Assembly (NCBI RefSeq): GCF_032854445.1
Contig: NC_088295.1
Span: 79,142,028-79,206,027, forward strand
Reading direction: 5' to 3'
DNA from: Liolophura sinensis
Taxonomy: Eukaryota; Mollusca; Polyplacophora; Chitonida; Chitonidae
DNA length: 64,000 bases
Both the position numbers and the translations under genes were made by a program. Under the pieces are notes generated by a model, which searched no databases, was not told the DNA's origin, and saw nothing but the letters and a program-made list of their open reading frames with translations. Every line of letters begins with the position of its first letter. Positions within the stretch are counted from its first letter, which is position 1. Positions 42,983 through 64,000 of the stretch are shown here, in pieces.

Positions 42983-43188
42983 TTAGACCCCACTGAGTTC
43001 TTCTTGTAGCTTTGTATCAGGGTTCAGCCGTGGGATGGGACATCTGATAGCCACGCATAATCTACTCCAAGACCACTCGTACAGATCGGTTCTCGTGAGG
43101 TTTATGGGGCTGACGGGGTAGAGCTCGGGTGGAAAGCCCTGGGGCAGGGTCTCCGTGATCACGGGGATAATCTTCTTCTTGTTGTAGG
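42983..43188 (-). CDS. MYD88: MyD88-B exon 4: TIR box 3 and stop
   Basis: Reads YNKKKIIPVITETLP, then LTRTDLYEWSWSRLCVAIR and CPIP. This corresponds to the box 3 region, normally FW-RL. The phenylalanine between the two tryptophans is serine. TAA at 42983-42985 follows a short tail (LQEELSGV), much shorter than the Ser/Asn-rich tail of MyD88-A. The acceptor is CCCTTCAG. Confidence 0.8.
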
Positions 43189-46100
43189 CTGAAGGGACAA
43201 ATGGAACAAGTTAACTGTGCCACAAATAACACAGAGTGTAAGTCTCGCCTGAACACTCGCGATTTCTGATGACATTCATTAGGCACGCTCTGCTGTCATC
43301 TCCGCTGTTTTTTTATGGTTTAAGCTTTTTTATTAAGTCACACATAATCGTATCTCTAGGACTCTTGTTACATGCAGTAGTGTACATGTAAATAGGAAAA
43401 CTTCTACTGTACCTGGAGATAAAGCATGAGCAAATTTCAGTTGGAATTCACAGCCGGGACTTCTGAGGAAATTCTTTGATAAAACAACAATGCACGTCTT
43501 ACACCTGAAGAATAAGTAAACACCAACGTTAGTTATCTTAGTTATCTAAACACCAACGTTAGTTACCTTAGTTATCTAAACACCAACGTTAGTTATCTTA
43601 GTTATCTAAACACCAAAGTTAGTTATCTTCAAGTCAATATGCATAGAACATATAATATCGTATACAATGAGAAATACTCAAAACACAGTATCTTGTGGTC
43701 GCTATGAATAGAACATATCATATCGTATGCAATGACAAATACACACAGTATCATGTGATCAATATACACACATGTACATAGAACATATCATACCGTATGC
43801 AGTGACAAATACTCAACACAGTATCATGTGATTGATATACACACTTGTACACAGAACATATCAAATCGTATGCAGTGAGAAATACTCAAATCACAGTATC
43901 TTGTGGTCGCTATGATTAGAACATATCATACCGTATGTAGTGACAAATACTCAACACACAGTATCATGTGATCAATATACACATATGTACATAGAAGATA
44001 TCATATCGTATGCAGTGACAAATACTCAACACACAGTAACTTGTGATCGATATACACACATGTACACAGAACATATCATACCGTATGCAGTGACAAATAC
44101 TCAAAACAGTATCTTGTGGTCGCTTGGAATAGAACATATTATATCGTATACAGTGACAAATACTCAACACACAGTATCATGTGATCGATATACACATATG
44201 TACATAGAAGATATCATATCGTATGCAGTGACAAATACTCAACACACAGTAACTTGTGATCGATATACACACATGTACACAGAACATATCATACCGTATG
44301 CAGTGACAAATACTCAAAACAGTATCTTGTGGTCGCTTGGAATAGAACATATTATATCGTATACAGTGACAAATACTCAACACACAGTATCATGTGATCA
44401 ATATACACATATGTACATAGAAGATATCATATCGTATGCAGTGACAAATACTCAACACACAGTAACTTGTGATCGATATACACACATATACATAGAACAT
44501 ATCATACCGGATGCGGTGACAAATACTCAAAACAGTATCTTGTGGTCGCTTGGAATAGAACATATTATATCGTATACAGTGACAAATACTCAACACACAG
44601 TATCATGTGATCGATATACACATATGTACATAGAAGATATCATATCGTATGCAGTGAGAAATACACAAAACACAGTATCTTGTGATCGATATACACACAT
44701 GTACACAGAACATATCATACCGTATGCAGTGACAAATACTCAAAACAGTATCTTGTGGTCGCTTGGAATAGAACATATTATATCGTATACAGTGACAAAT
44801 ACTCAACACACAGTATCATGTGATCGATATACACATATGTACATAGAAGATATCATATCGTATGCAGTGAAAAATACTCAACACACCGTAACTTGTGATC
44901 GATATACACACATATACATAGAACATATCATACCGGATGCGGTGACAAATACTCAAAACACAGCATCTTGTGGTCGCTTGGAATTGAACATATTATATCG
45001 TATACAGTGACAAATACTCAACACACAGTATCATGTGATCGATATGCACACATGTACATAAAACATATCATATCATATGCAGTGAGAAATACACAAAACA
45101 CAGTATCTTGTGGTTGATATGAATAGAACATATCATACCGTATGCAGTGACAAATACTCAACACACAATATCTTGCGATCGATATACACATATGTGCACA
45201 GAACATATATCGTATGCAGTGAGAAATACCCAAAACACAGTATCTTGTAGTCGCTATGAATAGAACATATCATACCGTTTGCATTAACAAATGTTCGACA
45301 CACCGTACCATGTGGTCGATATACACATACACATGTACAGAGAACACATCATACCGTATAAAAATGACAAATACTCAACGCACGGTATCATAAAGTGAAT
45401 ATACACACGTGTACATAGAACGTATCATACCCGTATACAGTGAGAAATACTCAACACACAGTATAATGTGGTCGATGTGAATAGAAAATATCACACCGCA
45501 TACAGTGGTAAATATGTGGTTGATATGCCCAGAACGTACAACATAGGCCTCCATACTCAACACACATGAAATAAGGACATTGTACATGTACCATTAGTAT
45601 GCGAATTCTTGTGGATGCCGTTATATGATCATCTGCCTATAAAACGTCACTACCTCGGAAGTTGATCATCACCACTGATGTAGCGTGTATCAATAAATAA
45701 ATCAATAATAAATAAATAAATAAAAAAAACGTCGGAACCTCAGGCACCTTGCGTCTGGCTGTCGGCAGTATGAACTTACGTGGGGATAACTGTTCATGTA
45801 CAGCCTTTACAAACGAGTATTTGTGACTGCATATCTTTTTACCTTTTTGCTATCAGCGCAGCTGTTGTGGAGTGAGTCGAAGCTCCGGGCAAACATGTCT
45901 CTGTCGGGTATGCAAATTTTTAAACTGGATCTTCTGACTTCAGTTCTTTCTCCAAAATTTAGCGCCACGGATATATCATCAACTGAGTGGACGAGAATTG
46001 CATGGTAGTACTGCGGCTGACCTGTTTCTACTAAATCAGAAAAAGAGACAGAAATTAGCGACATCTATATGTAAATGTGAATCTTACGGTGGCTTATTAG

Positions 46101-47197
46101 TGCCATGCAATAACATTTGAATTCTGGCAGTTTTGTACAAATACTTGCCAGAAAGGCGGCTTATCAAGCTGTTTTATCAGTAACGTTAGTTAATCCCTTT
46201 ACATTTTAGCGAAGAAAGTTCTATTTCACAATAGTAGTCCGTTTTATACACAGAGAATCACTTTTATGAAGAAATCGTTTTTTTGCGAGGAAATTATTTT
46301 CTCACATGAAAAATACCGCGGTGGATATCACTTTCGCCGCGGTGGAAATATTCTTCAGGTGAAAAAGTAATTCCCTGGCCGACAAATAATTTCTTCGTAA
46401 AAAAAAGTAATTTTCTCGAAAAAAAATGATTTTCCATGTAAAAACACAATTTCCTCGTGAAAAACAATTTCCTGTGTGAAAAATAACGCTTAGAACCACC
46501 GTTGAATCTAGCGAGTAATCTGAGGATGATTGTCGGTTTAATTTCCTTCTATAATAATGCTGGCCGCCGTCAAAAAAGTGAAATACTCATGAGAAAGCCT
46601 ATGGCGTAAAAATCAAATAAATAGCCCAGATAATTGCGTGCTAAGTAAAGTCTATGGCAAATAATTTAGATGGTAAGGGCATGCGCGGCTGCCACTCTCT
46701 TCACTCGCTTTACAACACTGCCACCACCAGACAAGACTGAGCCTTTGAGCCTATGCGACCCACTCAAGCTTTATCTTACCACTGTTATTCTCGCGCGGAC
46801 CTGCAATCAGCATTCATTAGTAAACAAAATTCAGATGTGGGTTATAGAATCATGGTGTGGTTGCCTTTAATAACGAGAATGCATTTTGTATCAAGTAATA
46901 TTGTTTGAGTGTTGAGCTTTGTGTTTTCTGACCCCGTATCCTGTCTCATCACTGTGACCACTGTGACGTTGGCGTTGTTCAAGATTTCTGCACAAAATTT
47001 GCTATATATGCATCAATGTAAAGCAGACTTTGTGAGTGGCTCATGCACCGGAAGGAGTGTGATCACGAAACGCTTGAAAAACAATACCTACCATCATCTA
47101 TTGTCATGTATTCAAACTCGTTGGCATGGTGATCGGTGTCGCTCCACGTGCTCTGTGAGATAGTGCCATCTTGTATAAGCGGAGGACTAGATGCCAT
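42983..47197 (-). CDS. MYD88: MyD88-B: MyD88-like TIR gene without a death domain (whole locus)
   Basis: Four minus-strand exons (47092-47197, 45843-46030, 43413-43504, 42983-43188) encode about 196 residues: a short intermediate-domain remnant followed by a TIR domain like that of MyD88. Intron phases (1, 2, 1) and the 92-nt third exon equal those of MyD88-A. The first exon opens with ATG in a good context (AAAATGG) and reads MASSPPLIQDGTISQSTWSD. No death-domain exon was found between it and MyD88-A. The TIR1 exon has one extra base at 45887-45889 that breaks the frame. Its TIR is more diverged than that of MyD88-A, with WSW replacing the WFW of box 3. It may be a truncated functional paralog, a decoy, or a decaying copy. 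Confidence 0.75.
43413..43504 (-). CDS. MYD88: MyD88-B exon 3: TIR core
   Basis: 92 nt, the same length and phases as in MyD88-A. CKTCIVVLSKNFLRSPGCEF is followed by QLKFAHALSPG, corresponding to the MyD88 'C--MVVVVS--YL-S-EC-FQ-KFA-SLSPG' block. The acceptor is TATTCTTCAG and the donor GTACAG. Confidence 0.85.
43518..43629. repeat. 30-bp tandem repeat next to the MyD88-B exon 3 acceptor
   Basis: Three and a half units of AAACACCAACGTTAGTTATC + TTAGTTATCT lie 14 bp from the exon boundary. On the coding strand they sit just upstream of the acceptor, where a branch point would be. Confidence 0.85.
43640..45560. repeat. Satellite-like array with 213-bp higher-order unit in MyD88-B intron 2
   Basis: About 26 monomers share GAACATATCATACCGTATGC and AGTGACAAATACTCAA. 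Between about 43930 and 45010 they are arranged as a trimer of two 75-bp and one 63-bp monomers (213 bp) repeated about five times with near identity. The flanks are more diverged single monomers. 213 is divisible by three, so one frame stays open for 356 codons on the plus strand; that frame is an artefact of the array. Confidence 0.92.
45843..46030 (-). CDS. MYD88: MyD88-B exon 2: TIR boxes 1-2, frameshifted
   Basis: After acceptor TCTGATTTAG it reads GQPQYYHAILVHSVDDI, then SLKICIPDRDMFA, parallel to MyD88-A. At the GGG of 45887-45889 (CCC on the coding strand) one extra base shifts the frame. Beyond it the alternative frame gives GASTHSTTAALIAKR, which matches MyD88-A, and only that frame meets the donor (GTAAAA) in the expected phase 2. 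The exon is 188 nt against 187 in MyD88-A. Helix A is strongly diverged. Confidence 0.7.
46240..46490. repeat. Degenerate A/T-rich short repeats in MyD88-B intron 1
   Basis: Repeated GAAAANNNAATTTCCT(C/G) patterns about 20-25 bp apart (AAGTAATTTTCTCG, AATGATTTTCCATG, ACAATTTCCTCGTG, ACAATTTCCTGTGTG). It looks like a decayed short tandem repeat. Confidence 0.5.
46526..46624 (+). mobile_element. SINE (family S) 3' part in MyD88-B intron 1
   Basis: CTATAATAATGCTGGCCGCC, then GTGAAATACTCATGAGAAAG and AATCAAATAAATAG, the core and tail of the family. It lies antisense to MyD88-B. Confidence 0.7.
47092..47197 (-). CDS. MYD88: MyD88-B exon 1: start codon and intermediate domain
   Basis: 35 codons plus one base (phase 1); the donor is GTAGGT. 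QDGTISQSTWSDTDHHANEF aligns without gaps to QDETVSQSSRSDTDHNVDQF of MyD88-A up to the same splice point. The ATG is at 47197. Reading further upstream in this frame stays open only to a TAG immediately before a possible acceptor, so initiation here is the simplest model. Confidence 0.7.
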
Positions 47198-47433
47198 TTT
47201 GTCGACGGATCCCGATTTTTTGTACGTGTGTAATTTCTACAACAGTTTAATTATAGAAACATTGTAATATCTGTAATACCATCTTTCCAAGCGGAAATCT
47301 TCCTGGACGTGTTGCCCTCTTCCGGGCTGGGGCTGTGTGTTGTAAGGAGGAACTAAAAGGCTGAAATGATCTGTAAATAGACAAACAGGGCGTTTCCTTA
47401 GTCCATAGCATCAGCAAATACAGCAACGGCTAA

Positions 47434-48082
47434 AGCTGAGATTCCATATACGCGGTATGCGGTTTGCGGTATACGGCACGCGGTACGCGGATACGGCATG
47501 CGGTATGCGCTTTCTCTGATTCCATTTATGCGGTAACCTGTGCGTTTTCTTTCTTTCATGGTGCGTTTTTATCAGAGCAAACATGTCGCATTCCTCCATT
47601 TCACGACGTGTGGCTTTAGAGCAAGATTCAGACCTTGCCATAATAGCAATGTCATATAAGTTCTTTCAACTAAAGAAGCGTAAAAAGAGAAAACACCGAT
47701 GGTGGGTCCACAGTATTTTGCGGCAAAGAGCTCAGTAGGGAGCTTTCCATAACTTGGTCTCGGAATTGCAGCTGTATGGAGAAAAATTCCAACGGTACTT
47801 TCGTCTAACCAGAGAACAATTTAAACAAGTTCCGACCACGTGTCGGGGAAACACCCCACCAGTGACGTCATTTCTTGGGATACCCTGTCCGGTTTTGAAA
47901 ACGCATACCGCACCGATCGCTACATGGTGCGATTGATTTTGCCGTATAAGTTTCCGCATGAAAAAACGGATCCGCGACCATACCTATGGAATCATTGCAA
48001 CTTATTTTAACTATTTCGATTTTTTGCCGCGTACCGCTTACCGCGTACCGTATACCGCTACCGCATGTAAGGAATCTCAGCT
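47434..48082 (+). mobile_element. PIF/Harbinger-type element, 649 bp, TAA target duplication
   Basis: Terminal inverted repeats begin AGCTGAGATTCC at both ends and are flanked by TAA at 47431-47433 and 48083-48085, the Harbinger-type three-base duplication. Behind each end lie repeated GCGGTA/TACGCGG motifs, candidate transposase binding sites. Inside, a plus-strand frame from ATG 47583 encodes the N-terminal part of a Harbinger-like transposase (HRWWVHSILRQRAQ, then GAFHNLVSELQLYGEKFQRY and FRLTREQF). It is interrupted by one TAG at 47736-47738. The DDE catalytic part is missing, so the element is non-autonomous. It lies 236 bp upstream of the MyD88-B start codon. Confidence 0.85.
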
Positions 48083-48624
48083 TAAGGACATAGTTTGCGG
48101 GAGCGATGACGTCATCCGTGGTGTCTATTAAAATTACTACTTATACAATATTTATGGACACGGACTGAAGTGAAACACACATATCCCATTATTTACGGCT
48201 TTACATTCACCACACATGACCTAACACTAAAATGAAGCTTCCCTTCTATCAACTTGGGTAGCTACACAAATGTAACTGTTCGAGAATGCTCAAAATAAAA
48301 GAGAAAAATTGTCGGAAATGACATGCCTGTTTTTGTGTCGGGTTGGCAAGGGGAATAAATCTAGGGGTGTAAACAATGGATTTAGAGTCACTTCCCCTGA
48401 ACTGCTCATTTACTGTATGTGCATCATCTAAAACTGACGGCCAAAAGAAACTTTACAAAGAGTTCAAATCATTTTATTTTGCCAAAGCAAAGAACAGGAT
48501 GAGTGAAGTTTAATATGTTGAAAAGGCCAATAGCTCTAGATATTGAAAGTCTTGAGTAAGAACGGACAAAGCAGCCCTCAAACCATTTTAACAATGGGCA
48601 GAGTATACAAAAAGTTGATTACTT

Positions 48625-49385
48625 TTAAAATCAATCAATGACAAAACCAATCAATATTACGTGTGGCCACCCCTTGCTTCAATGCATGCATAGAAAAAGT
48701 CAGTAGTCTGATGAGATGACGTGGGATTCGTTGCCATTCGTCTTGGAGAGCGAACGCCAGTTCTTGTCGGTTGACTGCAGGGTGTGGTTGTTGTCTAACT
48801 CGACGACCCATGATATCCCAAAGGTGCTCATACCTGGAGAACATACCTGGAGAACGTGTAGGCTACGTTGGCGTAGTTGGCGAGCTGTATGGGCTCTGGC
48901 GTTGTCATGCTGGTACAGGACACCACGTGCCTGCTGTTGAAGGAATGACAGGACAACAACAGGACGTAGAATTTCATCCACATAATGTTGAGCTATTAGA
49001 TTCCCGTATATGATGACAAACGGGGTCCGTTCCTCACCCCACACAATCACGCTGCCGCCACCAAACGGTACCACCTCCTGGACGCATGATGTAGCCGTTC
49101 ATTCGCCTCTTCGACGATAAACTCGCTGTCTGCCATCGGCTTAGAACAGACAGGAGCGACTTTCATCCGTGAAAACAACACTTTGCTAATCACGTCGCTG
49201 CCAACGGCGTACAATTCGAGCCCATCGCAACCTCTGGCGACGATGTTCGGCTGTCAACAACTGCCCTCTGAATTGTCGATAGGCCCTAATTCCGTGGGCC
49301 ACGAGTCTCTGGACACGGTCTGCCGACTGGCCCGGTGACCTAAGGCATTGATTGACGATGACCTCACTGTCATATATCAGGTCTA
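48625..49385 (-). pseudogene. Tc1-type transposase relic
   Basis: Minus strand. FGGGSVIVWGEERTP, YVDEILRPVV and LYQHDNARAHTARQL are the Tc1 DDE core; a downstream frame gives YEHLWDIMGRRVRQQP and LQDEWQRIP. Upstream pieces (ASRQTV, WQRRD, YRRRGE) match the N-terminal and early catalytic part. Several frameshifts and stops break it, including one at an apparent 13-bp local duplication (ACCTGGAGAACAT / ACCTGGAGAACGT, near 48830-48860). Terminal repeats were not found. It is inactive. Confidence 0.88.
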
Positions 49386-49424
49386 CTCTTAATATTTAAA
49401 ACCAAGGTCATTATATTAATTGTA

Positions 49425-49542
49425 CATGTACATTTATTTATGTAATTGAGTGGCGTTTTACGCCGTGCTCAAGAATATTTCACTTATACGACGGCGGTCA
49501 GCCACGGGGAGGAAAGCCACGACCATCCTCTGCTCTAAAAGC
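49425..49542 (-). mobile_element. SINE (family S), 3' part, minus strand
   Basis: TTTATTTATGTAATTGAGTG, GCGTTTTACGCCGTGCTCAA, GAATATTTCACTTATACGAC and GGCGGTCAGCC are the reverse of the family tail and core. It abuts the Tc1 relic. Confidence 0.75.
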
Positions 49543-49646
49543 TCACAAAACTCATGGCTAAAATAATATAATGCAGAATGACTAATTGATGGAAACTACC
49601 TCATCGTCAGCCGAAACATGGCGTTGTTGAAAGGTTACTCTGACTA

Positions 49647-49971
49647 TAGTCTATTTCTTTCAGCAAGTCGCCTTTTTCAGCTGTTTGTAAAATCAGTCAT
49701 GCCCGCTTCAAAATTTGCTTTCAGTCAGTGTCAGGTAACAACCCAAACTCTGCATATCAATATGTTGAAAATTCATATCCTTACAAACAAAATAAAATTA
49801 TAACACTTTTTCTAATTCATAATGTTAGACTGCATAAACAGTTTCGACGGCAAGAACCCAGTGTCTTGGGTGACATCTTAATTATTCAAAAACCAGTGGC
49901 AAAGCAATTTTGGTAGCGAGTATGACTGCTTTTACAGACAGCTGGATACATGCAACAAAAGTAATAGACTA
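49647..49971. mobile_element. TA-flanked MITE, copy 2 (325 bp)
   Basis: It starts TAGTCTATTTCTTTC and ends AAAAGTAATAGACTA with TA on each side. Subterminal inverted blocks (CTGTTTGTAAAATCAGTCAT against ATGACTGCTTTTACAGACAG) pair with each other and match copy 1 at 40874-41238. Confidence 0.85.
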
Positions 49972-50565
49972 TAAACGAAGCGGGAAGGTTAATGTCCGCC
50001 AAATATCACGAAATTGGTCCATAGGGATCGAATTTTAAGTAAGGGAACCATTTATGATTCAGCTGTGGGGTATCATGACGCCAGGTATTGCTGGCGTTTT
50101 CATATCGTTGAAAATGTGAGATTCGACAGTCAACACCCTGCCTGTGTAAACATATACATGTAAGTTATTTGAACTTTACGTTCGATCAATGAAAATTTAT
50201 ACTCGTATGCTAAGGTACTTTGCGGTGCGGGGCGTACATTTTACAATACAGATCACGTCGCTTTTCATTCCCCTCAGAAAACAAACAGGGAGTCTCTTGA
50301 CAGAGCCTTGGGTTGTTAAATTTGGACGGTCAAGAGTGTAATCATTGATTCACTATATACAGCACCTTTTCGATGGCACACGTTTTCCTATTGTATCTGT
50401 TTCCTATTGTAGATGTTTATATATGTATATATTGTACATTTCTGTATGCACACTGGATTACATTCAACAGTCACCACAGGTTTCTTACCAACGGTAATTA
50501 AAACCTGGTATATAGTGTGTAGAAGTTGTGACTACTGACAGTTAACGTCACACTTTCTTACACTG

Positions 50566-50742
50566 ACGCGGACTCCGTGGTTGAGATGGTCAGTATTCCA
50601 GCGCGGCGCATTGACCCAGGAGTCTGTCACCAATGCGATCGCTTTGAGTTCTAGTCCACCATAATGCTGGCCGCTGTTATATAAGTGAAATATTCTTAAG
50701 TATGACTTAAAACACCAATCAAATAAATAAATAAATCAAATC
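50566..50742 (+). mobile_element. SINE (family S), near full length
   Basis: A tRNA-like head (ACTCCGTGGTTGAGATGGTC with an A-box-like TGGTTGAGATGG; B-box-like GAGTTCTAGTCC) is followed at once by the core (ACCATAATGCTGGCCGCTGT; AAGTGAAATATTCTTAAGTA) and ACACCAATCAAATAAATAAA. The middle body is deleted relative to the copy at 58067-58325. Confidence 0.85.
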
Positions 50743-51686
50743 TTACAAACAGGCATACTGAATGATGTGAACTTATATCTTAATAAAAAATATATACTAA
50801 CAGAGTTGTATGATACAGTATAGTGTATTTCTGAGGTTGCTCTTTTGTCAACATACATCATTTCATTGATTAGATAAAAAAAATTCAAAAAGAAATAAGA
50901 TATGTCAACAAGCTAATGCAAAATGTAATCTTCATAGCACTTCTCACAAGTGGGCCGTCTATAAAAATCTGCAATCTGCAATCATTTCCCACAAAAGCAT
51001 CATTAAACTACTAGATACATATCAACTACTGTGCAATACCCGGCCTCTAGACTTATTTTCCTTGCCTCCATTGAAAAAAAAAATTCACTGAAATACGTGT
51101 ATATGCATAACAGCATCTTCCTGGACTGGACCATCAAATAACATTTGCTGACAGGAAGCTATCCTTTGCGACTGGTATTATTTCTTATCACGTAACGAAA
51201 CACTGATATCATGACATTACACGATTGCAAAATGTAACTAAAAAATTCTGCATACAATTGTACACGCGTTATGCTCCAACTATTTAGTTCCACCGCGACG
51301 CTGCCCATCATACAACTTGCTCACTCAGTATGCTTACATTTCAACATAAAATGACAATTAAATGGAAACGCGAAAAAGTATCTCAGCACGTATAATCTAT
51401 GGGTTTTATTTGATTAGTTTTTGGATTAATGATTAACACCGTCCTTAAGAATAAATGTGCAGAATTTTCGACAGGGGACACCGTCGAGTAAATTCCACCC
51501 CCTTGCCTGGTATATAATAAATTCGCTCAATTCGTAGTTTGACCTGAATAACCAACACATCGGTTTGGCCAGTCCATGCATGTTTCACGATGACAGCTAA
51601 GTATAGGCCTGTCCTATCTAGCGGTCAGCTTCCGACACCAATGCGATCAGGACACATGTCGGATTCAAAATTTTACAAATATGGCT

Positions 51687-51786
51687 TTATATTTGTTTAT
51701 TTATGTATTTATTTGATTAATGTTTTAGGCCATACTCAAGAATATTTCACTTACACGATCGCGGTCAGCACAATGATGGCAAATTC
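51687..51786 (-). mobile_element. SINE (family S), 3' part, minus strand
   Basis: TATTTATTTGATTAATGTTT, CATACTCAAGAATATTTCAC and GATCGCGGTCAGC are the reversed tail and core; truncated. Confidence 0.75.
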
Positions 51787-52052
51787 GGCTTTAAAAATAT
51801 TTTATAGGTCGTATGTCAGTCAACAGCGTCAGTGTTCCATTAACCACTGATATACAATATATGTAGAGGTACATACAGACTGCTAATCAGTCAACCTTGG
51901 TCGTTTTTCCCCGTTAAATCCAAAAACTTGAACTATTGATCGCTATGAAAAGTGAATTAAATGGACTGTCTATTCATATTTGTGGTTGAAATACCTGCAC
52001 GTTAAATAAAGTCATATACATAACTTAGACTTGCTTTCTCATTTTTTGTAAA

Positions 52053-52140
52053 CACAATGCATGTAGGTCTATACACGCGACCCCCGATAAACCGGCCACA
52101 ATGCATGTAGGCCTATATACGCGACCCCTGATAAACCGGC
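52053..52140. repeat. 44-bp tandem duplication
   Basis: Two copies of CACAATGCATGTAGGTCTAT + ACACGCGACCCCCGATAAAC + CGGC (52053-52096, 52097-52140) differ at a few positions. Confidence 0.85.
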
Positions 52141-53765
52141 CGAATGTCAAAACCGACATTTTTATTAGTCCCGAGCAAGGTCGATTTTCACAGGTGTGAC
52201 TATATATATATATGCACGCTTGTATAATGAGCTGTACTGAGTGCAGTATATTATAAACATCCTTTTCTGGTAATTAACACGTGGAGGGGGCAAACAGACC
52301 TCATACATCCGCGTTAGCAGAGTGTGCTACTTTTATGTTCCCCTCGTGACCTGTATATATTACCATGACATCTATCACTCCCAACCCACCTTAATTCACT
52401 ACAGACAACACCGCATTCAATGGCTGTGGGGTCTTGGTGGCAATAAGCCGTCGACGCCCTTTGATCGATTTGCCATTTCCGCAGTCTAAGCCTCAATAAA
52501 GACCACCTGTCTTCCACGAACAAAGTGTCCAGATCTTCAAGCACACGAGTTCATGATGAAATGCTCTTTCAACATTTTTTGTGATATCATCTCGTGTTGT
52601 GTAGCAACAGATCAACAAATAAAGCCTTTGATACACTTGACAGTGCGTCTTTCACAAAGCTCTTCGTCCCACCTATTATCTCTATCTCTTATATGTATAA
52701 TATTATAGATTTCAAGAACCGAACGACTCTCAGCAAACAATTAAACCACTGTGTAATTCCGGAACCGTCTTTGGTTTCGGTGTCCAAGCTCCAGGAATAC
52801 CCAGTCTGGTCCGTCTTTGATTACAACATCTGTGACAAAAGACGGCCTCAGGATTATAGCTTGAATACCTCAACCTCAGACGGTAACTGTTACAGGGACA
52901 CACAACCGACACTGATTGGCTGAGAGTAGAGATTGGGTTTCTCCGGTTAAATCATCAAGCCTTGGTCACGCTTGAATAAATCTACCACACCTAAGCTTCA
53001 GCTAAGGCTAGGGCATAGCCTTAATTTGCCCATCTGTCACACCAGCCAATCAGAATCGATTCTGTATCCATTTAAAAGCAACGAAAACACTAACCTGAAG
53101 TATATAACACAGGCCATTAAATTTTTTTTCAGCCTTGTAACACGCATTTGAAAGTTTGAATTCTAGTGGCCTTTTCTGACAATAGTGACGTCACATCAGG
53201 TTTTTGCCACTTAACACACAAAAACTACATATACATGTATATGTTGATTTATGAATAAATTTATCTAGTGGACCTTAAAATAAGCTATATGTAATTCAAG
53301 CAAAAAAATCTTGATGGGACGTCACTGATACCCTCTAGTTCACTACGGCTGCGATTCAGTAGACAACAAGACGCTTGTGTATTTAATTTGAGTGGTTTAA
53401 AATACTGGGAAAATGGACGAGAAGTATTTTTGAAAATATGTAAAAGTTTCTCGGAAGCTTGAACGCGATAGTCCTCAAAACACGTAAAATGCGTTTGGTG
53501 AGCTGTGCATATGGCGACCGTGATTGTCTCTATCTTCTTCGACCAACAAGGAAAAGAATAAATGATTCAGAAAAAAGTCGTTTTTGAAAAATTTGCATAT
53601 GTATTTTACCTCTCTCACAGACAACCTTATATAATATCCACTAACAATTATGGTAGGATAAACTCAACAAGGGGACACAGATAAAAACTTAATCCTCAGA
53701 CACATAAATGCAGAACTCAATACTGTGCAATAATGTGACTAAACCCACATGTTCTGTGCAACTAT

Positions 53766-54014
53766 ACACTCAAAAAGTTAATCTATTCATTTTAAAAGAA
53801 AGTCTATTGTCTCAGTGATGCTAGAATGTATTCTGTTATCATAACACAATTCTGTCATATTCAACATAAAATTCTGTTAGTTTACTAACATCTTTATGTT
53901 GATAAATGTATGTTATATATAACAAAATAATCTGCTGTAATAGCAGAATACATTCTTTTACCACTCAGACAACAGGCCCTCTGTTAAATTTAACATATCG
54001 TTCTTTTCAGTGAA
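53766..54014. mobile_element. Long foldback element (~120-bp arms)
   Basis: The left arm (CACTCAAAAAGTTAATC, TCTATTGTCTCAGTGATG, GAATGTATTCTGTTAT, TTCAACATAAAATTCTGTTA) pairs with the reverse complement of the right arm (TCACTGAAAAGAACG, CCTGTTGTCTGAGTGG, GAATGTATTCTGCTAT, ATCAACATAAAGATGTTAGT). The arms meet near 53883 with little spacer. There is no coding capacity. Confidence 0.75.
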
Positions 54015-56263
54015 CAAGTAACATGGTAACACTACTTTTCAAAATAGCTACTCATATGATGATAGGCACATTGAAGATACCGCCTGCGGTATCAATGACT
54101 CCTTACCAGAAGACATGTTCATGTCAATGAGCAAAACTCTTCAAACGATCGACAAGCCGTTACAATTTGTTGAAATAGTTCAATGGTCTGATGCGGAAAA
54201 AATAGGAACATATTCTACAATTACAGTACACAATGACATATACTAAAACAAGAACATGAAATACAAAATCTTTCCAATATTTTTGACAAAATTTCGAGAT
54301 GCGTTGTACATAAGTAGTATGCCTAGTATCGAAAGTTTTCAAAAATACAAACTTACCTATGGATAAAACCAAGTTCATGACATAAAATCAGTCACAACTT
54401 CTTTCTTCTATCTCAGAATGAAAGCTCGGAATCGGGAATTTTTATGACTAACTTACTTCCTGTATTTAACGAGGTCACGAGGCTAAACCCAGGCCCTAGG
54501 TGTTCAGTGAAAAGCGCGGGCTCATATAGCATTATTTGGGAGAGCTATGACCTACAAGTTGACGGCATGGCGGCTCCCGTGAACCCCGCCTGTGACAAAG
54601 GGACTCCCCGTGCACAGAATCGACACTTACACGTCATACAGTCACATTACAGCAGCACGCAAACCAATTGTATTTCTTCCCTGCGTGCAATGTGCGAAAT
54701 CAACCAATTATTTTATCCACCTAGCTAACAGGGCCTCCAAACTATCAATATCAAAGATTCAGTAAGATTTAAATTTTAATCTCCGGTTAAACCCGAAATA
54801 TAATAATTCATTTTGAATAAAATTTTCGCAGGAGTGATAGACATACTGCAGAATGACATCATCACAAAATTACGCAGTCTACTATGAGCGTTCTTTCACA
54901 GTAAAACGTGCGACAGCCAGCCGCAGGGAGTGAAACGCCATCACACCTATGATACCATAACCTATGGTATTCACATGCTTAGTATCGTTATGTATACATG
55001 TACCATTTTGTCCCTTGTCATGCAAGTGTCGTAAAATCCATGGAATTATGAAAATAGGTATAAATCTTAACAAATGTACCCGGAGCAGCATAATCTATAT
55101 TAATATGAAGAGAACAATTCTACATGTAGGGGGATACAACAACCCTCAGTAAAACACATATAACGACAGATAGAAATTTTGTCTTTGTCTCACGGGGAAA
55201 CAGAGCAAAGTGTGGCAACATTTGAAGAGGTTATACCTAAGATTTTGTGTGCACTATATATATTCCATAATCAAATTTTCTCTATTTACTTAGCTCAAAT
55301 TACTGCCATTCAGAAAATATCAGGCTCATACCTGCACTATTTACAGTGGTAAAATGACTTAAGTTTGAAAAAGTGATTATAAACGCTATGAACTTTATTA
55401 ACTATTTTGAACGGCTACAGGTGCACAAACGAGGCGGATAAAGATTAAGATTAAACACTGATTACATAAAGTTTTGAGGAAAGAGTGTGAAAAATTAGTT
55501 GTAAATGTGGTCTTCAGTAGTTTGTTGGATTTTTTTTTATACAGAAGAAGATACCAGCAAATAATTTTTGTATGGTGGGTATTTGGGGCCACCTCTTAGC
55601 ACATAGTGTCTTTGTGTAATAATGATATGAGGATGTAGAACATGCTTAATAAATCTATTTGCTCTAGAATTTGGTCTTTTGAGCTCACAAATGCCTTCAA
55701 TCTGGACTTTGATCATACTTATACCCTAACATATCCATAAATATTATCACCAATAAGATTAAATGCATATGTTTGGACGTTCAGGTAAATTTACAAGACA
55801 TCCATCCCATATTAATTCAGAAAAATTATAATGCAAAGGTGATATATACCAAAAGGTAGTCCCAAATACCCTCCATACAATAGTATTTTCAAATACCCTT
55901 TTCTCCAGTAATAAAAAAAAAAACAAAAAATATTAAAGAAAATATTTGCAAATATGTTTTCAGGCTCTTTCACATGATTTTTTTCTTTAAAGGTGATTGT
56001 GTGTGCTATTCTAAATTAATCACACAAATTCCAAAGGAATTGAGCTGATCAATTTTTGTCAAAAGTCTCTGGTATAGTCTCTTTAACTTCTTTCAGTGGC
56101 ATGTCTATGAAGAACTTCATGGTTTACTCATCAGTTTCGCGCTGTTTCAGGTGTTGACTGATATTATTCAGACACCAATTAAAAAACCAAGTGATAAGAG
56201 GTTCCCCGATAAATACCTATTCCTGCTTTCGAAAGGTGGATGGTACTCAAAGAGACATTGCAA

Positions 56264-56420
56264 GTGTTTATTTATTTACTTGATTGGTGTTTTACACAGT
56301 ACTCAAGAATATTTCACTTATATGGCAGCGACCAGCATTATGGTGGGAGGAAACCGGGCATAGGCCGGGGGAAACCCATGAGCATCCGCAGGTTGCTGTC
56401 AGACCTTTCCATGTGCGACA
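56264..56420 (-). mobile_element. SINE (family S), 3' half, minus strand
   Basis: TTTATTTACTTGATTGGTGT, TACTCAAGAATATTTCACTT, CCAGCATTATGGTGGGAGGA, AACCCATGAGCATCCGCAGG and TTGCTGTCAGACC. It has a well-preserved core and part of the body. Confidence 0.85.
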
Positions 56421-57418
56421 CTGCAAGTAACACTCTTTACAAATACAGCAAAAGACTATAACTGGACCTTCAGACATAACAAACTAAACATACATGCATA
56501 TAATTCAGGAAAAACAACCTCAAAGACAAAAAACATAACAAATAATTTTTTCGATCCTTAACAAACTAGAGGTCCAAAATATATGCGTACATGTATTTTG
56601 TTTCAATGTGTAAAATGTGTATTCTTGAAGAAAGAAAATGTAGTACTCTGTAAACAGAGTTTCTATTGAAACTTACAGTACAAAAAAAGGTGAAAGATTA
56701 AATTTAAAATATACATTAAGATATTCTGTTGAATGATCATAGTATTCTATGTACTAGCTACCAGGATACACAAATACCACACCTGACACCTTATCTATCA
56801 TCTGCTATGCTAATACTCCTATTACAAATTGAGACGGTTAAAGTGTTTTTCGCATAAATGAGAACTGATAAGCTGAGATTTAAGAATTCCTAAAGACAAT
56901 GCTCCGTTAACAGTTTCCACTTCACACAATAACTGAAATAACCATAATAAAATGTAACTAATTTTTATAAATAACCATCAATTCATTTATGTTCAGAACA
57001 TAAATCAGAATGTAGTCATGCTTGAGAAAATACATACATATTATGATGAGTACAAAATATTCTGATATACTGATGCCAGAGGCTAGGTACAAATTATGCT
57101 TAAGTTTCGTGATAAAATATAATTAGATCTATGAATTAAGTCTGAAAAATTCCATAGACCACTACAGTGTTGACACTGGTGAAAAATAAAGCAACAGTGT
57201 AGTGTTTTGCTTAACACCTTTCAAATACACCTTTCCATAACTGCTAACAGTTTAAAAAGAAGTCTTTAGAAAACCTTAAAATGAATAAATGTAAACTCAG
57301 CTCTTTATACAAAAAATCGGTGGACATTGTGAAACTATCAGTTAACCCTGATTCACCAAAGACAACTCAGGAAGATTTTAATTATTTGATGAACAAACAG
57401 GGACCAGGTCACTACTTC

Positions 57419-57780
57419 TTAACAGCGACTGGAATGGATGGCTGACCGAGTGGATGAATGACTAGCTGAGTTATTGGATGAGCGAGTAGATGAATGACTG
57501 TTATTTGAAGAGCTGCTGGTTTCACTTTCATTTTTAGGCCATATGTTACTAGAAGATGGAGAGGATTCAATTTTAAAATGAACTTGGCTCAGACGCTGTC
57601 TGTCCAGAGCATCTGTGGCAGGTGATGTATCTACAGGCATTTGGATGGCTCTCGCAAGTCTATCCCAAAACCATTCCTTCAGATCTCCCTTGGTGAAGTC
57701 ACAAATCGTGATGTGTCTGAGGATAGATGGGAGTTGACACAACTCCTTCAGCACAGGAATCACCTTCTTACTTCTCGATC
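57419..57780 (-). CDS. MYD88: MyD88-A last exon: TIR box 3 and Ser/Asn-rich tail
   Basis: KKVIPVLKELCQLPSILRHI and TICDFTKGDLKEWFWDRLAR with AIQMP complete the TIR domain, including the box 3 FW-RL. About 66 further residues follow, low in complexity and rich in Ser, Asn and His (for example SETSSSSNNSHSSTRSSNNS), ending SSRC and TAA at 57419-57421. The acceptor is CGTTTTCAG. The tail is not part of the usual MyD88 fold and could be a phosphorylation platform, which is inference. Confidence 0.92.
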
Positions 57781-60700
57781 CTGAAAACGTCAACCAAATA
57801 ACAGTACAGATGACCTGTTGCACATGGTAAGGTTTGAAATGATAGCTGCCTATTTACAGCATACATAAATATCCCCTTCACCAAACTTAGTTTTGTGGAT
57901 TGAATGGTTTATGCCATCCCCAAGGCCTTACAAGCCAGGTACCAAACAGTCAACTTCATGTGCAGAACCCAGGAAAGACATCACATCTTGTAGAATGCCT
58001 ACTAAACCTTCTAGGTTTGAACATAAAACATCATCATGGACAATAAGTCTGCACAGCAGCACATTGGATTAATTTATTTATTTATTTGATCAGTGTTCTA
58101 CACCATACTCAAGAATATTTCCCTTATGCCCCAGTGGCCTGCATTATGTTGGGGGCAAACTGGGCAGAGCGTGAGGGAAACCCATGGGTTGCTGACGGAG
58201 CTGTCCACGTAAGGCCGCAGAGGAAGCCAGCATGAAATCACAATGACTGCATTGGTGGGAAGCTCCTGGGTCATTGCACTGTGCTGCCGTGCTAACACCC
58301 TTGGCCACGGAGGCAACCACATGAAATTAATCAAGTGTTAAGCTAGTATACGCAATCAAAGTAAAATCTACTTTAAATAAATGCCACTGTACGTAAAAGA
58401 CACCTATCAATAGTAAACCAATTCTAATGACTGTACCTGGAGACACTGCATGGGCAAATTTGATCTGAAAATCACACTGAGGACTTTTGAGGAAGTTTGG
58501 AGACACAATGGCAACCATCTTTTTACACCTGTAATTAGAGGTACATGTAGCTCATATATTCACTATTAAGGTATGTACAGCATATTTAGAGAAAGTACTG
58601 CAGTCAACTGTGTCATTAATGTCAGAGTTATACTTGATAAGAGCTTTGATAACAACTCAGGTCAACCACTTCATACAGTTTGGGCAGATTTAAGGGTAAA
58701 ATCACAAAATTAAAGTGAATTAACACATTACTGGTATTAACTTTTGTTTACAAAGTTTGAAAACAGTCGTCACAAAATGCCAACATAATTGTGTCCTTAT
58801 TAATATAGTTGGATAGTTTGAACAAAGAAATAAAACAGAAGTTTTTTGGTTGTACGCCACATTAACACCATTTCTACTACATTGTGACCCAGTCTATGGG
58901 TACTCACACGCTGTCTAATACTACAAGAGGAGCCTCAAGAGACTTCAATTGTGAAACTCTTCAAGAGAGGGAAAGGAAATTATGAAGAATTTTGGTGAAA
59001 TGAGGAATATTGCTCATTCAAATCTTAACAGTCAGCCAATCAGCTTTCAGATCACAGTGCCATTTTTACGCTTACACTTCAACCCCATTATTTTCTAAAA
59101 CAACATCACTTATTTGCTAGAAGACATCAAAGCTTTCTAAATATATCGAATGTCCACTCATTGGTATTATGCTTCCCCCAAAAAGAGGGGCAAAATTTCT
59201 ACAGTGAACTGGAAGCTGCCATAAAATAAGGAAAATGAACATGTTGAAGATGATGAAGAAGAGAAGCCCTTTCACTGCACCAGCATTCCATGATTTGACT
59301 GAACCTGCCACCTGGCCCATCAGATAAAGGGCATTATGATTACACTTGGGCAGTTTTGCCCGCAGTCTCCCACATGTGTGCATATAGTGCTGTGTGTGCT
59401 GCAGTTGAACTGTGGAATGTTTGATCCACCAGTTGTGAATGTTTGACTTGGCTTCAGTGTTGTACAAAAATATCAAGCCCTTACCTCTCCTCAATCAACC
59501 TGGCTGAGATAGTGTGGTACGACCCTCCGGCCAGCATGTCACGCTCAGGTACACACAATTTAAGATTGTGCTTGCTGGACTCAAGGTGTGAAATCATCTC
59601 TTTTACAAATGCGATGTCATCAATGGAATGACAGACAAATGCGTCGTAGTACTGTGGTGCCCCGTGAGCCACTGGAAAGGAAAAAAAATGATACACAAAA
59701 TCTATATCTATTTAGTAAAGGATTTGAAGAATCTGTATGTATGCTTGGGGTTTAACATCATATCTTTCAGTCATATGACGACGATGAATCATTAGGTGCG
59801 TGTACATAAACTGTGACTTCTTGTGGCAGGACGAGTTCATGCTGCCGCCACTGACATATCAAGCCGAAGACACCAGACATGACACCGTACCCAGTCACAT
59901 TATACTGACACACAGCTAACCAGTCCTGTTTCCTTGCATTAATCTCTCAGTGTTGAGCATCAAGTGAGGCACCAATAAGTACCATTCATGAATGACTTGA
60001 AGGCAGTTGCTCTGACCAAAGCATTCAAGGATTTGAAGAGTTAGTATAACTAAGACAATAGCACTATATTTAGCGTATGTACATGAGCAACAGGCCACAT
60101 ATCTCATTGGAGAGATACTCCCAAGATGCCGGTGCTCCCCATGGTCAATTAGCACCCTCATGCTATTAGTTAGTTACATGGTTACTCAGTGAGAGGATAC
60201 ACAAATATGGGGTGTCAATAATCCTCATACTGGGTGAGGCGTCACCATATCCTATCACTGAGTAACCATGTAAAGAATTTATCCTGCAAAGATCCATCAA
60301 TTCAGTGCAGAAGACAAATGTATAGGTGAATCGCTTAAGCTATGTGACCATTGATGGATACTAACAAAGGGAGATAACCTACTCAGCAGACATATTTGAC
60401 GTCATCTGAAGGATTCGAGAATATATCGGTACCCCACGTGACCATTATTGTCCAATGACAAGCGAAGCATTTTGTCTGATGCTGCATAGAAGTACATATG
60501 TATCATCCCCATTGTCAAGTAGCACCCTAATACAGATCCATATCAATGAATCTAACATTGTCAAAATGAACCGTTATACATTGCTTTATACATTTATATA
60601 TAGATATATAGATACAACATACTTACCATCGCCATTTGTCATGTACTTGAACTGATCAACATTGTGATCGGTGTCAGACCTGGAGCTCTGGGACACAGTC

Positions 60701-61985
60701 TCATCCTGGACAATCTGATAACTCTTAAGCTGTTTCTGATTCTCCTCCCATACGTGGATGTCATTTTCTACAATTTTATCAGAAAATCCCATATTACAAA
60801 ATATTTCACAATTTTTTTGCTGTTTCTTTAAAACACATGCATACACAATTCTATCATTAACAATTTCCAGTAGTACTGAGTTCATTTATATCAGTATTAC
60901 ATCTCCACCTTGCACATACATGCATGTATTGACTTTGAATATGCTTTACTTTACAAGTGGTACTCTAAAAATAGGCTGTGTAATAAAAAGAATACATATA
61001 CAGTCTATTTCACCAAAAAGTGTGACAAACTTATTAGAAATTGTTATATATATAAAAAATTCTAACTAAAGCAGAATTAACAGCTGGCAACTTGCAAAAC
61101 TCATATACTTCATCTGTGTGCCAGATTTCCTCCCATCATAACTCTGGCCGCCGTCACATAAGTGAAATATTCTTGTGTATGGCGTAAAACACCAATCAAA
61201 TAAGTAAATCAGTAAAATCTGATCAGTGCTTTACACCGTATTCAAGAATATTTGACCATGGACATTATGTTGGGAGCCAGCTTGCAAAACATAGCCTATA
61301 TTTGTATATCTGGTAAGAGTAGCTACAGATAATGAGAGTGTGTTAAGTCTCATCGCAGGCAAATATGGGAGGTCACAGACAAAAATCCTTTATTTTATTT
61401 TAAAATGAAAGTGAAAGTTCTTGGCTTAATGCACACTTTATAACAATACAAATTATGAATGCAAGAAGATGAAGCCAAAAGAAAATGCAGTAAGGTCTTG
61501 TTAGAAAAATCCTTTACAGTATGAATATTTGCTTATCCTGAAAACAACAAAAATACATGGTTATAAACAAAATGGTTAAAGTTTGTACACTGTTTGATCC
61601 ACAAAACACTCCACCCAAATACTACCTCCACCACCTCCACTCTCTACACAGCACAGAAAAATTACAAAACACAGATTTCAGAATCCAGGAGGTGAAGTTC
61701 TGTAAGCATGCCATGGTGGCATGGAAGATTCTGGGAGACCAATACTGTTTGGCTTACCTATAACAGGCAAAACTGAGGTCAGCACATCTACTCTGCCCAA
61801 CTCCTGTAGGATTTTGCACAGTTTGCCCACAGTGGCATTTAGGACGAGTCCCGCTACCCCAGTCATCCAAAAGCGTTCCCATAGGATCAGCACTTCTCTC
61901 AAAATTGCATGTCTCCAAATACTCATAACCGATTAGTTCTGCGAACCCGGTGAAGTCTGGCATATAATAAACTTTCAGTAGGCAC
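57419..61985 (-). CDS. MYD88: MyD88-A: MyD88 adaptor with death and TIR domains (5' incomplete)
   Basis: MyD88 is the cytoplasmic adaptor that couples Toll-like/IL-1-type receptors to IRAK kinases through TIR and death domains. Five minus-strand exons are visible: 61758-61985 (death domain), 60627-60767 (intermediate domain), 59485-59671, 58437-58528 and 57419-57780 (TIR plus tail). Phases match throughout once one extra base at 61838-61840 is set aside. The residue pattern follows MyD88 rather than other TIR adaptors: 'EYLE---E--ADP---LL-DW', then TIR with 'DAF-CH' and 'FW-RLA-A'. The exon for the N-terminus and first death-domain helix was not found up to 64000. A Ser/Asn-rich tail extends the C-terminus. 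Confidence 0.88.
58067..58325 (-). mobile_element. Full-length tRNA-derived SINE (family S) in a MyD88-A intron
   Basis: Read on the minus strand: head GCCTCCGTGGCCAAGGGTGT (A-box-like), GCAATGACCCAGGAGC, B-box-like GTGATTTCATGCTGG, body (GGCCTTACGTGGACAGCTCC; CAACCCATGGGTTTCCC), core (CAACATAATGCAGGCC; AGGGAAATATTCTTGAGTAT) and tail GATCAAATAAATAAATAAAT. This is the reference copy for the family in this window. It lies in the MyD88-A intron before the last exon, in the sense direction. Confidence 0.88.
58437..58528 (-). CDS. MYD88: MyD88-A exon: TIR core
   Basis: 92 nt. CKKMVAIVSPNFLKSPQCDF is followed by QIKFAHAVSPG, the central strand and helix of the TIR fold. The acceptor is AATTACAG and the donor GTACAG. 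Confidence 0.92.
59485..59671 (-). CDS. MYD88: MyD88-A exon: TIR boxes 1-2
   Basis: PQYYDAFVCHSIDDIAFVKE is box 1. LKLCVPERDMLAGG is box 2 and the BB loop, then HTISARLIEER. The BB-loop proline found in most TIR domains (RD--PG) is alanine here and also in MyD88-B. The acceptor is CTTTCCAG and the donor GTAAGG; phases 1 and 2. Confidence 0.9.
59743..59965 (-). mobile_element. SINE-like family D2, diverged minus-strand copy
   Basis: GCTTGGGGTTTAACATCATA, TCAGTCATATGACGACGATG, CATTATACTGACACACAGCT and AACCAGTCCTG correspond to the reverse complement of the element at 28278-28609. It lies in the MyD88-A intron between the intermediate-domain and TIR exons. Confidence 0.75.
60177..60270. repeat. 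94-bp imperfect palindrome in a MyD88-A intron
   Basis: CATGGTTACTCAGTGAGAGG at the left end pairs with CCTATCACTGAGTAACCATG at the right end, with one mismatch over 22 bp. Pairing continues loosely inward (AATATGG and CCATAT). It could form a hairpin and may be a small foldback element. Confidence 0.75.
60627..60767 (-). CDS. MYD88: MyD88-A exon: intermediate domain
   Basis: 47 residues, beginning ENDIHVWEENQKQLKSYQIV and ending DQFKYMTNGD. The intermediate domain links death and TIR domains and in mammals is needed for IRAK4 recruitment. The acceptor is AATTGTAG and the donor GTAAGT; phase 1 at both ends. It aligns without gaps to the MyD88-B start exon. Confidence 0.85.
61125..61283. mobile_element. 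Two SINE (family S) 3' parts, head to head
   Basis: The plus-oriented part (61125-61212: CCTCCCATCATAACTCTGGC, AAGTGAAATATTCTTGTGTA, ACACCAATCAAATAAGTAAA) is followed directly by a minus-oriented fragment (61217-61283: TCAGTGCTTTACACCGTATT, CAAGAATATTTGACC, CATTATGTTGGGAGCC). It lies in the MyD88-A intron after the death-domain exon. Confidence 0.75.
61758..61985 (-). CDS. MYD88: MyD88-A exon: death domain, with a +1 frameshift
   Basis: The first frame reads MPDFTGFAELIGYEYLETCN, then RSADPMGTLLDDW. The second gives ATVGKLCKILQELGRVDVLT and SVLPVI. Together they match the MyD88 death domain ('W--LAE-M-FEYLE---LE--ADPTG-LLD-W', then 'VG-LLELL--LGR-DVL--L'). The switch needs removal of one base, most simply one A of the AAA at 61838-61840 (TTT on the plus strand). 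The exon is 228 nt; 227 would satisfy both splice phases. The acceptor is CTCAG|GTGCC (weak pyrimidine tract); the donor is GTAAGC. Confidence 0.82.
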
Positions 61986-64000
61986 CTGAGATTTGAGATT
62001 GAGGAACATGGACAAAGTTCTTCTAGCTCTGTTCCTGAGTACAGTCACAGAAATATGATCATAGCAGGAAGAAGTCAGGAAGGCATGGGTTTAGATGATA
62101 TAGGGAGATGAGCTGCAGCCATCATGAAAGTCTGTCACACCAAAAGTACCTCCAAATGCTGAAAGACACAGAAAAGCTATACAATGACCGTTTATCCACT
62201 CTTTCAAATGTAAAAAGAGCATTAATTCTTCATTTCAAGTCAATATGCCAATGTACCTTAAGTTTGAGATCCAGTAAAAAGGACAATCATGATTAAGAGG
62301 ACTGGATAGCAGCAAACCGGTGATAAATCAGCCAGCATACGACTTCCTGCTACACATTTGTTTTGTGCAGATAAGATGCGGTGCACAAAAGGGAAGCTTA
62401 TAATACATGCATATGTACCTACATGAACTCCCAGTGGTGAGGTCAAAATTGCATAAAACTATATATACCAAAGTTCTATAAACACTGTTTTGTGAAATAT
62501 ATCTGAACAAATAACACTTGAGCTTATCAGGCTATCAGGGTACCAGGCTATTCAGCTGTCAGACATTATACGTTATTAAGAAATCTAAGTTTTCAGAAGT
62601 ACAGATTCTGAATTCACTATGGGCCTTAAGAGCTCATGACTTCACACTTGACCTACCAGTATACACTGGATACATAATGATTTTAAGGAAGTTGGAGCAG
62701 TTCACAACTTCTTTTTTGTCTGGTACTGGGACACTAAATTCCACCTAACATCCACATTATAACTCCTTACAAAATAACCACATACTTTGTTGGGAAACAA
62801 TATGAACTACGCATGAGCTAAGGTACAGTGTAAAGTACCTGTGCTTTGTTATGTACATATGTACAAGCTTATAGTACATGTACTACAGCATTTGCTAAAT
62901 GGTACATGTGATTACCCTGTACACAAATTACCCATCACACTTGCCTCAGTAACATACTTATTTTTTAAACGATTATACTTTGTTAATTTACTGCTGGTTT
63001 TCAATCATGAACGTATTTATTCCTCATATATACTTTAAGAAATTATGTTATATGAAGAAAATAAATTCTGTTTAGACTTTAATAACCTTAACATGCTATA
63101 AGATTGATGGTTAAACTTGCTCTGTATTGTAGGATGTGAATTGAGGTATGGGGCAAACTATAACTAACTTGATATACGATATATGATAGCTTATCAGCCT
63201 CTTTGTACAGGATGACAGACTGCTGTATTGTTTACTACTGAACAACACATTTACTGACAATAAGCTCCAAGGCTTATCATAATAAAGCAATGAAACCATC
63301 AGTACAGAAAACAAATAATAAAAATCAAATGCTTTTGTTAAAGAATCAATAGTGCGCAATCTACACTTCAAAGATAACCAAAAATTTGGCCATGGAGAAG
63401 GAGAACTCCCTAGTTTTTCCACTGGATCTCTGAATACAGAAGTACATGTAGTACAAGTATGTGTTATTCAGGAATTTTAATAGTTTTCAAATAGAAGGGT
63501 TTGGGGCTTAATGGACAAAGCCAGCCTGACATCCTACTATCTCAGAATAAAGTACTCACATACTGTATTTTAGTCCTACCACCTTAACAGAGTGCATGCT
63601 TAATGATGTCATCACACTATTTCTGTTTTAAATCCTATGATTTAAAGTGAAAATAAAAAAAGTATGTATCGGTGGAAGTCCACACCAATCTTTATCCAAA
63701 ACTACCTTTATTTACTTTCACATTTCTGTTTCCAATGTAATGACAAAATACAGTCAACTGTTGGAATTCTATTTAAAGGAGGAGGTGTGTGTGGGTGGGG
63801 GGTGGGGGTGGGGGTGGGGGGGTGAAGGGGGGGGAAGTGAGTGGGGGGGGTGCTCAACCTGTTAATTTTGGTGCCAATGACAGCACTATAGCAGCTCATA
63901 GGCCAAGGCTCAAATTGATGCTTTCATAGGGACTTTTACACTCTTATTTATCCTTCAATGAGTACCATGGATCTTTATCTAGATGTCTAGTTAGAGGAGA
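61986..64000. other. Right-edge stretch upstream of the MyD88-A death-domain exon
   Basis: I searched the minus strand for the N-terminal MyD88 exon (start codon, first death-domain helices) and recognised none; it probably lies beyond 64000. The only notable structure is the G-rich tract at 63779-63851. Confidence 0.5.
63779..63851 (+). other. Long G-rich tract, candidate G-quadruplex cluster
   Basis: About 73 bp with at least eight runs of four to eight G separated by T, TG or GAA. It exceeds the minimal four-run quadruplex pattern. It lies on the strand opposite to MyD88-A, in what is probably its first intron or upstream region. Confidence 0.75.

Follow-up and report, generated by a model that had tools for sequence, protein, structure and literature searches.

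A tandem MyD88 pair in the chiton Liolophura sinensis: a diverged paralogue without a detectable death domain, and broken reading frames in both assembled copies

The 64,000-nucleotide stretch of Liolophura sinensis DNA analyzed here (hereafter the window; RefSeq assembly GCF_032854445.1, contig NC_088295.1, positions 79,142,028 to 79,206,027) carries two MyD88 genes on its minus strand, MyD88-A (62.0-57.4 kb) and MyD88-B (47.2-43.0 kb), arranged head-to-tail (Table 1). According to the genome report, the assembly was built on 14X PacBio HiFi reads and first published under the name Liolophura japonica (PMC11068029), which was later corrected to Liolophura sinensis (PMC12441733). Our leading reading, to which we would give slightly less than an even chance, is that MyD88-B is an old tandem MyD88 duplicate with no detectable death domain within the window, and that its frame was recently broken in the allele that was assembled. 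An initial annotation of this DNA had described a death-domain MyD88 next to a possible TIR-only decoy, and overlooked the broken reading frames in both genes. These breaks, above all those in the one MyD88 death domain that the genome search returned, are a more surprising observation than the decoy pair itself.

On sequence similarity, MyD88-A is the MyD88 orthologue and MyD88-B a diverged MyD88 paralogue. Both TIR domains are of the MyD88 type by matches far above chance: among PDB sequences, the spliced MyD88-A TIR was closest to human MyD88 (E = 3e-43, vs. 3e-11 for the runner-up family, TIRAP), and MyD88-B, judged on the 207-amino-acid reading discussed below, was likewise closest to MyD88 (E = 6.6e-16, vs. 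5e-4 for the runner-up, TLR1), which bears out the earlier call of two minus-strand MyD88 loci in tandem. The donors and acceptors of the two genes lie at homologous positions, with three donor-acceptor pairs common to both, and the human MyD88 gene presumably has the matching exon order (death domain, intermediate domain or ID, three TIR exons).

The MyD88-B frame breaks within its first TIR exon. At the same donor position this exon is one base longer than that of MyD88-A (188 vs. 187 nt); it therefore ends in phase 0 and not 2, contrary to the shared 1, 2, 1 phases first assigned to both genes, and the frame closes after 99 amino acids. In a frameshift-aware alignment to human MyD88, a single +1 change falls within the BB loop (score 221, against 181 if no change is allowed); the residues preceding it match human MyD88 in one frame, the LPG that follows it in another. 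Spliced at the conserved sites from the ATG at 47197, MyD88-B thus yields 99 residues and meets a stop (43501-43499) at the next exon junction, the frame holding for only the initial ~41 of 139 aligned TIR residues. This ATG lies inside the ID in good context (A at -3, G at +4), as had been annotated, and is a better candidate start than the ATG at 46064; the latter, immediately ahead of TIR exon 1, falls in the pyrimidine tract preceding the acceptor homologous to that of MyD88-A. Entered at its acceptor in the phase of MyD88-A, the MyD88-B ID exon reads into a stop. Two further likenesses described for the pair stand in part: the ID alignment is ungapped over the last 28 codons (16/28 identical) but gapped over the whole exon (141 nt in MyD88-A, 145 nt in MyD88-B), and the 92-nt TIR exons are equal in length but not identical in sequence (67/96 alignment columns).

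A different donor could keep the frame open. Use of a donor at 45811, located 32 nt beyond the one homologous to that of MyD88-A, extends MyD88-B to 207 amino acids and is the only route we found to phases 1, 2, 1 in this gene, although the BB-loop region stays out of frame (15 out-of-frame residues from the BB loop on, followed by 11 extra residues). One could then imagine that MyD88-B is made as a 207-residue protein whose remodelled BB loop has other binding partners, and the product does pass the Pfam TIR_2 cut-off (29.6 vs. 28 bits), with a match limited to residues 106-174, after the break. However, the predicted U1 duplex of donor 45811 is the weakest of eight (-3.0 kcal/mol, the remaining seven ranging from -6.8 to -11.0, with the donor homologous to that of MyD88-A at -6.8). 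Furthermore, past the change it is the old frame of MyD88-B that matches MyD88-A (BLOSUM62 score 28, reached by 1/100000 shuffles), whereas the residues of the actual frame score -16 and -14, which points to past selection on the old frame and makes this the least probable of the readings considered. Scarcely more probable is that the MyD88-B TIR exons serve as a second, alternative 3' cassette in a single larger gene, in which the death-domain and ID exons of MyD88-A are spliced to either set of TIR exons. The two loci share a strand, with MyD88-A upstream, and both ID-to-TIR exon 1 junctions are in phase 1 and would thus join in frame there; however, MyD88-B has an ID exon of its own that is conserved and ends at a good donor, MyD88-A ends in its own terminal exon, and the MyD88-B frame change would break the cassette product too.

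Evolutionarily, MyD88-B does not look like a copy that has drifted neutrally since the duplication. Over 171 codons compared between the two genes (omitting one base at the MyD88-B frame change), the proportion of synonymous differences (ps) is 0.70, i.e., saturated, while that of non-synonymous differences (pn) is 0.36. The pn/ps ratio is lowest in the last 28 ID codons (0.30) and TIR exon 2 (0.35), where pn is 0.23-0.24, and reaches 0.56 and 0.41 in the two parts of TIR exon 1 and 0.72 in TIR exon 3. MyD88-B also retains 39 of the 67 residues common to MyD88-A and human MyD88, and its identity to the human TIR amounts to 47/139 aligned residues (67/137 for MyD88-A). Because synonymous sites are saturated while conserved residues persist, also past the break in the old frame, MyD88-B would have been coding for long and then either broken recently or misassembled. 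Judging from these codons, it is an old copy with a long history of translation and a higher rate of evolution than MyD88-A, as under relaxed constraint; if it is a pseudogene, the pattern is compatible only with a recent death. The A-B divergence gives no date, however, for when the death domain was lost.

Under our preferred reading of an old duplicate broken recently, the TIR and ID exons of MyD88-B stayed under amino-acid constraint long after the tandem duplication, as the comparison with MyD88-A shows, until the +1 change seen in the BB loop of the assembly broke the frame, an event we judge recent because the old frame persists beyond it. Conserved-site splicing would then give a 99-residue product holding only the start of the TIR, which would presumably act neither in receptor binding nor as a decoy, and since the early stop lies upstream of a further exon junction, nonsense-mediated decay would be the expected fate of the transcript. 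Before the break, MyD88-B may have been a short TIR-only competitor of the kind known from oysters. The proposal of a TIR-only decoy is thus sustained as far as it describes a paralogue without a detectable death domain, with conserved ID and TIR exon 2 and a mode of action reported in oysters; it falters on the assembled sequence, in which the BB loop frame is broken, so that MyD88-B cannot make the TIR domain a decoy needs, and in which MyD88-A, the partner expected to signal, is out of frame in its own death domain. The assembly accordingly offers no open frame for a complete TIR such as that of the oyster competitor CgMyD88s. A frame disrupted within a conserved domain is a mark of a pseudogene, and here it may also be an assembly error.

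The death domain was confirmed in MyD88-A only, where its exon is itself spread across three reading frames. Aligned to human MyD88 with frameshifts allowed, the exon requires two +1 changes, one near 61957 and the other near 61839 (score 152, vs. 94 without them), and with these changes 43 of 82 aligned residues are identical to human; when read through, the sequence matches MyD88 in PDB at E = 2.2e-17. As assembled, MyD88-A thus does not carry its death domain in one frame with the rest of the gene, which may be an assembly error, while its ID and TIR exons are open and its TIR aligns to that of human MyD88 with no frame change. No in-frame ATG was seen between the conserved part of the death-domain exon and the first stop upstream, so there may be a third break, or another exon further upstream. 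A tiny intron would not mend the exon: by eye, it holds only one GT-AG stretch, of 29 nt, and removing this would not put the frame right. Nor did inspection by eye of the three change sites reveal a shared in-register motif that would indicate programmed frameshifting or editing.

For MyD88-B, tblastn at E <= 10 gave only short, chance-level matches near the gene and between it and MyD88-A. A protein search of the genome for a second MyD88-type death domain returned four matches, three being the pieces of MyD88-A itself and the fourth at E = 0.32, and DNA searches with the two regions gave one place each. Although such genome searches may overlook weak matches, we therefore set aside a hidden death-domain exon between the two genes, a second MyD88 death domain, and a duplicate contig. 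The Pfam PF00531 search of the genome yielded 32 matches at E <= 0.01, and the MyD88-A death domain was not among them; we think it escaped because it is split.

Whether the breaks are real or artefactual is, in our judgement, about equally likely. Because the PF00531 search is biased against split domains, HSP70 and actin were chosen as controls, giving 49 (20,268 bases) and 56 matches (15,285 bases), or 105 matches and 35.6 kb in all, and among these no frame split was found, no two same-strand matches lying <60 bases apart. At the upper error rate from this control, three frame changes in ~1,329 bases would have P ~2e-4. A uniform assembly error is thus unlikely to be the cause and any error would need to be local; poor local coverage at 14X would explain all three changes together and is possible. 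None of the three sites is a long homopolymer. A weaker, local control comes from nine open reading frames (ORFs) of a neighbouring plus-strand gene: three hold near-complete immunoglobulin (Ig) domains in one frame, four hold partial ones and two none at the thresholds used, the three near-complete ones lying at 22.3-27.2 kb, ~16-21 kb from MyD88-B. Elsewhere in the genome, 70 of 103 TIR matches fall in frames of at least 600 amino acids, four of the 70 with stops inside the match; these are counts of matches and not of genes, one ORF can hold two of them, and the 600-residue cut drops 33 of the 103.

Several points weigh against the reading of MyD88-B as a recently broken duplicate. MyD88-A, the one gene in which a MyD88 death domain was found, is broken likewise, and twice; an animal with many TIR-domain genes would be expected to need that domain, which points to a locally bad assembly, whose coverage is just 14X HiFi. 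The ID and TIR exon 2 of MyD88-B are well conserved, and the three shared donor-acceptor pairs are kept. The HSP70/actin control is itself imperfect, in that 22 of its 105 matches hold stop codons (probably runs into introns or old copies) and it is blind to a split gene of which one piece goes unscored. It is accordingly well possible, though we would still lean away from it, that MyD88-B is a living TIR-only MyD88 made from ATG 47197, which binds receptor TIRs and blocks the recruitment of IRAKs, and that the breaks in both genes are local assembly errors. One cause would then cover all three +1 changes within 16 kb. MyD88-A being the only full MyD88 found, and TIR matches in long frames being so numerous, its death domain is expected to work, and apart from the frame changes it shows no other obvious decay, its identity to human comparing well with that of its TIR. 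The LPG of the MyD88-B BB loop survives in the shifted frame, the low pn/ps of the ID exon and TIR exon 2 fits a working gene, and oysters offer a precedent for TIR-only MyD88. The split-free 35.6 kb of HSP70 and actin and the want of long homopolymers at the change sites speak the other way. Unlikely, in our view, is that all breaks are real, so that the chiton's only MyD88 would have lost its death-domain frame and the tandem copy its TIR frame, with Toll-like signalling running by another route, without a working MyD88 death-domain adaptor. Taken by itself, the split of the MyD88-A death domain is possibly an assembly error, a null allele or a real loss.

Table 1. Features of the MyD88 pair, in window coordinates.
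Feature	Position	Strand	Details
MyD88-A death-domain exon	61758..62039	-	Uncertain 5' limit; phase-1 donor after 61758; two +1 frame changes
MyD88-A intermediate-domain (ID) exon	60627..60767	-	141 nt with an open frame; starts and ends in phase 1; splice sites ...ttgtag (acceptor) and gtaagt (donor)
MyD88-A TIR exon 1	59485..59671	-	187 nt, donor phase 2
MyD88-A TIR exon 2	58437..58528	-	92 nt, donor phase 1
MyD88-A terminal TIR exon	57419..57780	-	Serine-rich tail; runs to the stop codon
MyD88-B ID exon	47092..47236	-	145 nt from the A-like acceptor; last 28 codons conserved; candidate start ATG 47197
MyD88-B TIR exon 1	45843..46030	-	188 nt at the donor homologous to that of MyD88-A; +1 change in BB loop near 45887-45896
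MyD88-B alternative weak donor	45811 (last exonic base)	-	Keeps MyD88-B open to 207 amino acids
MyD88-B TIR exon 2	43413..43504	-	92 nt; stop 43501-43499 if conserved splice sites are used
MyD88-B terminal TIR exon	42983..43188	-	Runs to the stop codon
Tandem repeat array	43645..45378		213-nt unit, 8.2 copies; fills most of the MyD88-B intron between TIR exons 1 and 2

The repeat array in the MyD88-B intron underlies a 364-amino-acid plus-strand ORF, which is probably spurious. On the minus strand at 48635-49395, 1.4-2.2 kb upstream of the MyD88-B ID exon, lies what is probably a decayed Tc1/mariner-like transposase (of four ORFs compared with Pfam, one hits HTH_Tnp_Tc3_2, at E = 6.6e-5, below Pfam's cut-off); by analogy with MyD88-A, it sits near the expected site of a death-domain exon and may mark how that exon was lost. 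In the neighbouring plus-strand gene (~22300-37200), several exons encode Ig domains and one may encode a fibronectin III domain (it scores below Pfam's cut-off); we take it for a gene of the contactin type or a similar adhesion gene. Outside the window, the next-best loci in the search with the MyD88-A TIR (37% and 29% identity) are four TIR-only ORFs on contig C10 (L003, L004, L006 and L007), which by eye have an intronless TIR and form near-identical pairs 60-110 kb apart. L003, the one of the four compared with PDB, matches TLR and MyD88 TIRs about equally and is not MyD88-specific. The four ORFs were considered as candidates for the true decoys; that they are TIR-only regulators is a guess.

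The consequences differ with the fate of the frames. If MyD88-B is alive, TIR-only MyD88 competitors would reach chitons and not oysters alone, and their one-to-one tandem layout would lend itself to simple tests of dose-dependent damping. Real breaks in MyD88-A as well would turn this chiton into a natural experiment on Toll-like signalling in the absence of MyD88; and if they are assembly errors, they are a warning to check frame integrity before calling a truncated paralogue a decoy. Should MyD88-B be intact in life, its best model would plausibly be, by analogy, a short competitor that occupies receptor TIRs and is unable to recruit IRAKs. Truncated MyD88s are reportedly also negative regulators of TLR2 signalling, going by the title of a 2022 paper.

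Among the papers returned by the literature search for chitons, none is by its title about chiton MyD88, in a collection that mostly excludes subscription papers. The closest described counterpart is CgMyD88s of the oyster Crassostrea gigas, a TIR-only protein with a 178-amino-acid ORF that is reported to bind CgTLR and whose overexpression inhibited the NF-kB activation induced by CgMyD88-1 or -2 (Front Immunol 2020, PMC7381170). As described there, it resembles MyD88-B in its MyD88-type TIR, its lack of a death domain and the presence of full MyD88 genes in the species, but its ORF is known from cDNA, whereas that of MyD88-B is broken as assembled and known from genome sequence alone. The same article cites two naturally truncated, TIR-only MyD88 variants of C. 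gigas that are reported to inhibit NF-kB activation by MyD88 (Xu et al., 2015, cited in PMC7381170); in this account they are expressed and induced by killed bacteria, unlike the genome-only MyD88-B. A survey of the oyster MyD88-like family lists ten genes, six with Death and TIR domains and four TIR-only, in pairs or clusters of three, and its authors proposed the TIR-only members as competitors (Sci Rep 2015, PMC4346834). Paired MyD88 genes and TIR-only members are thus common to both animals, but the oyster family, as presented there, is a multi-gene expansion, whereas one pair was found in the chiton. A TIR-only MyD88 decoy and paired MyD88 genes are therefore not new in kind, being already in print for oysters; the pair described here belongs to another lineage.

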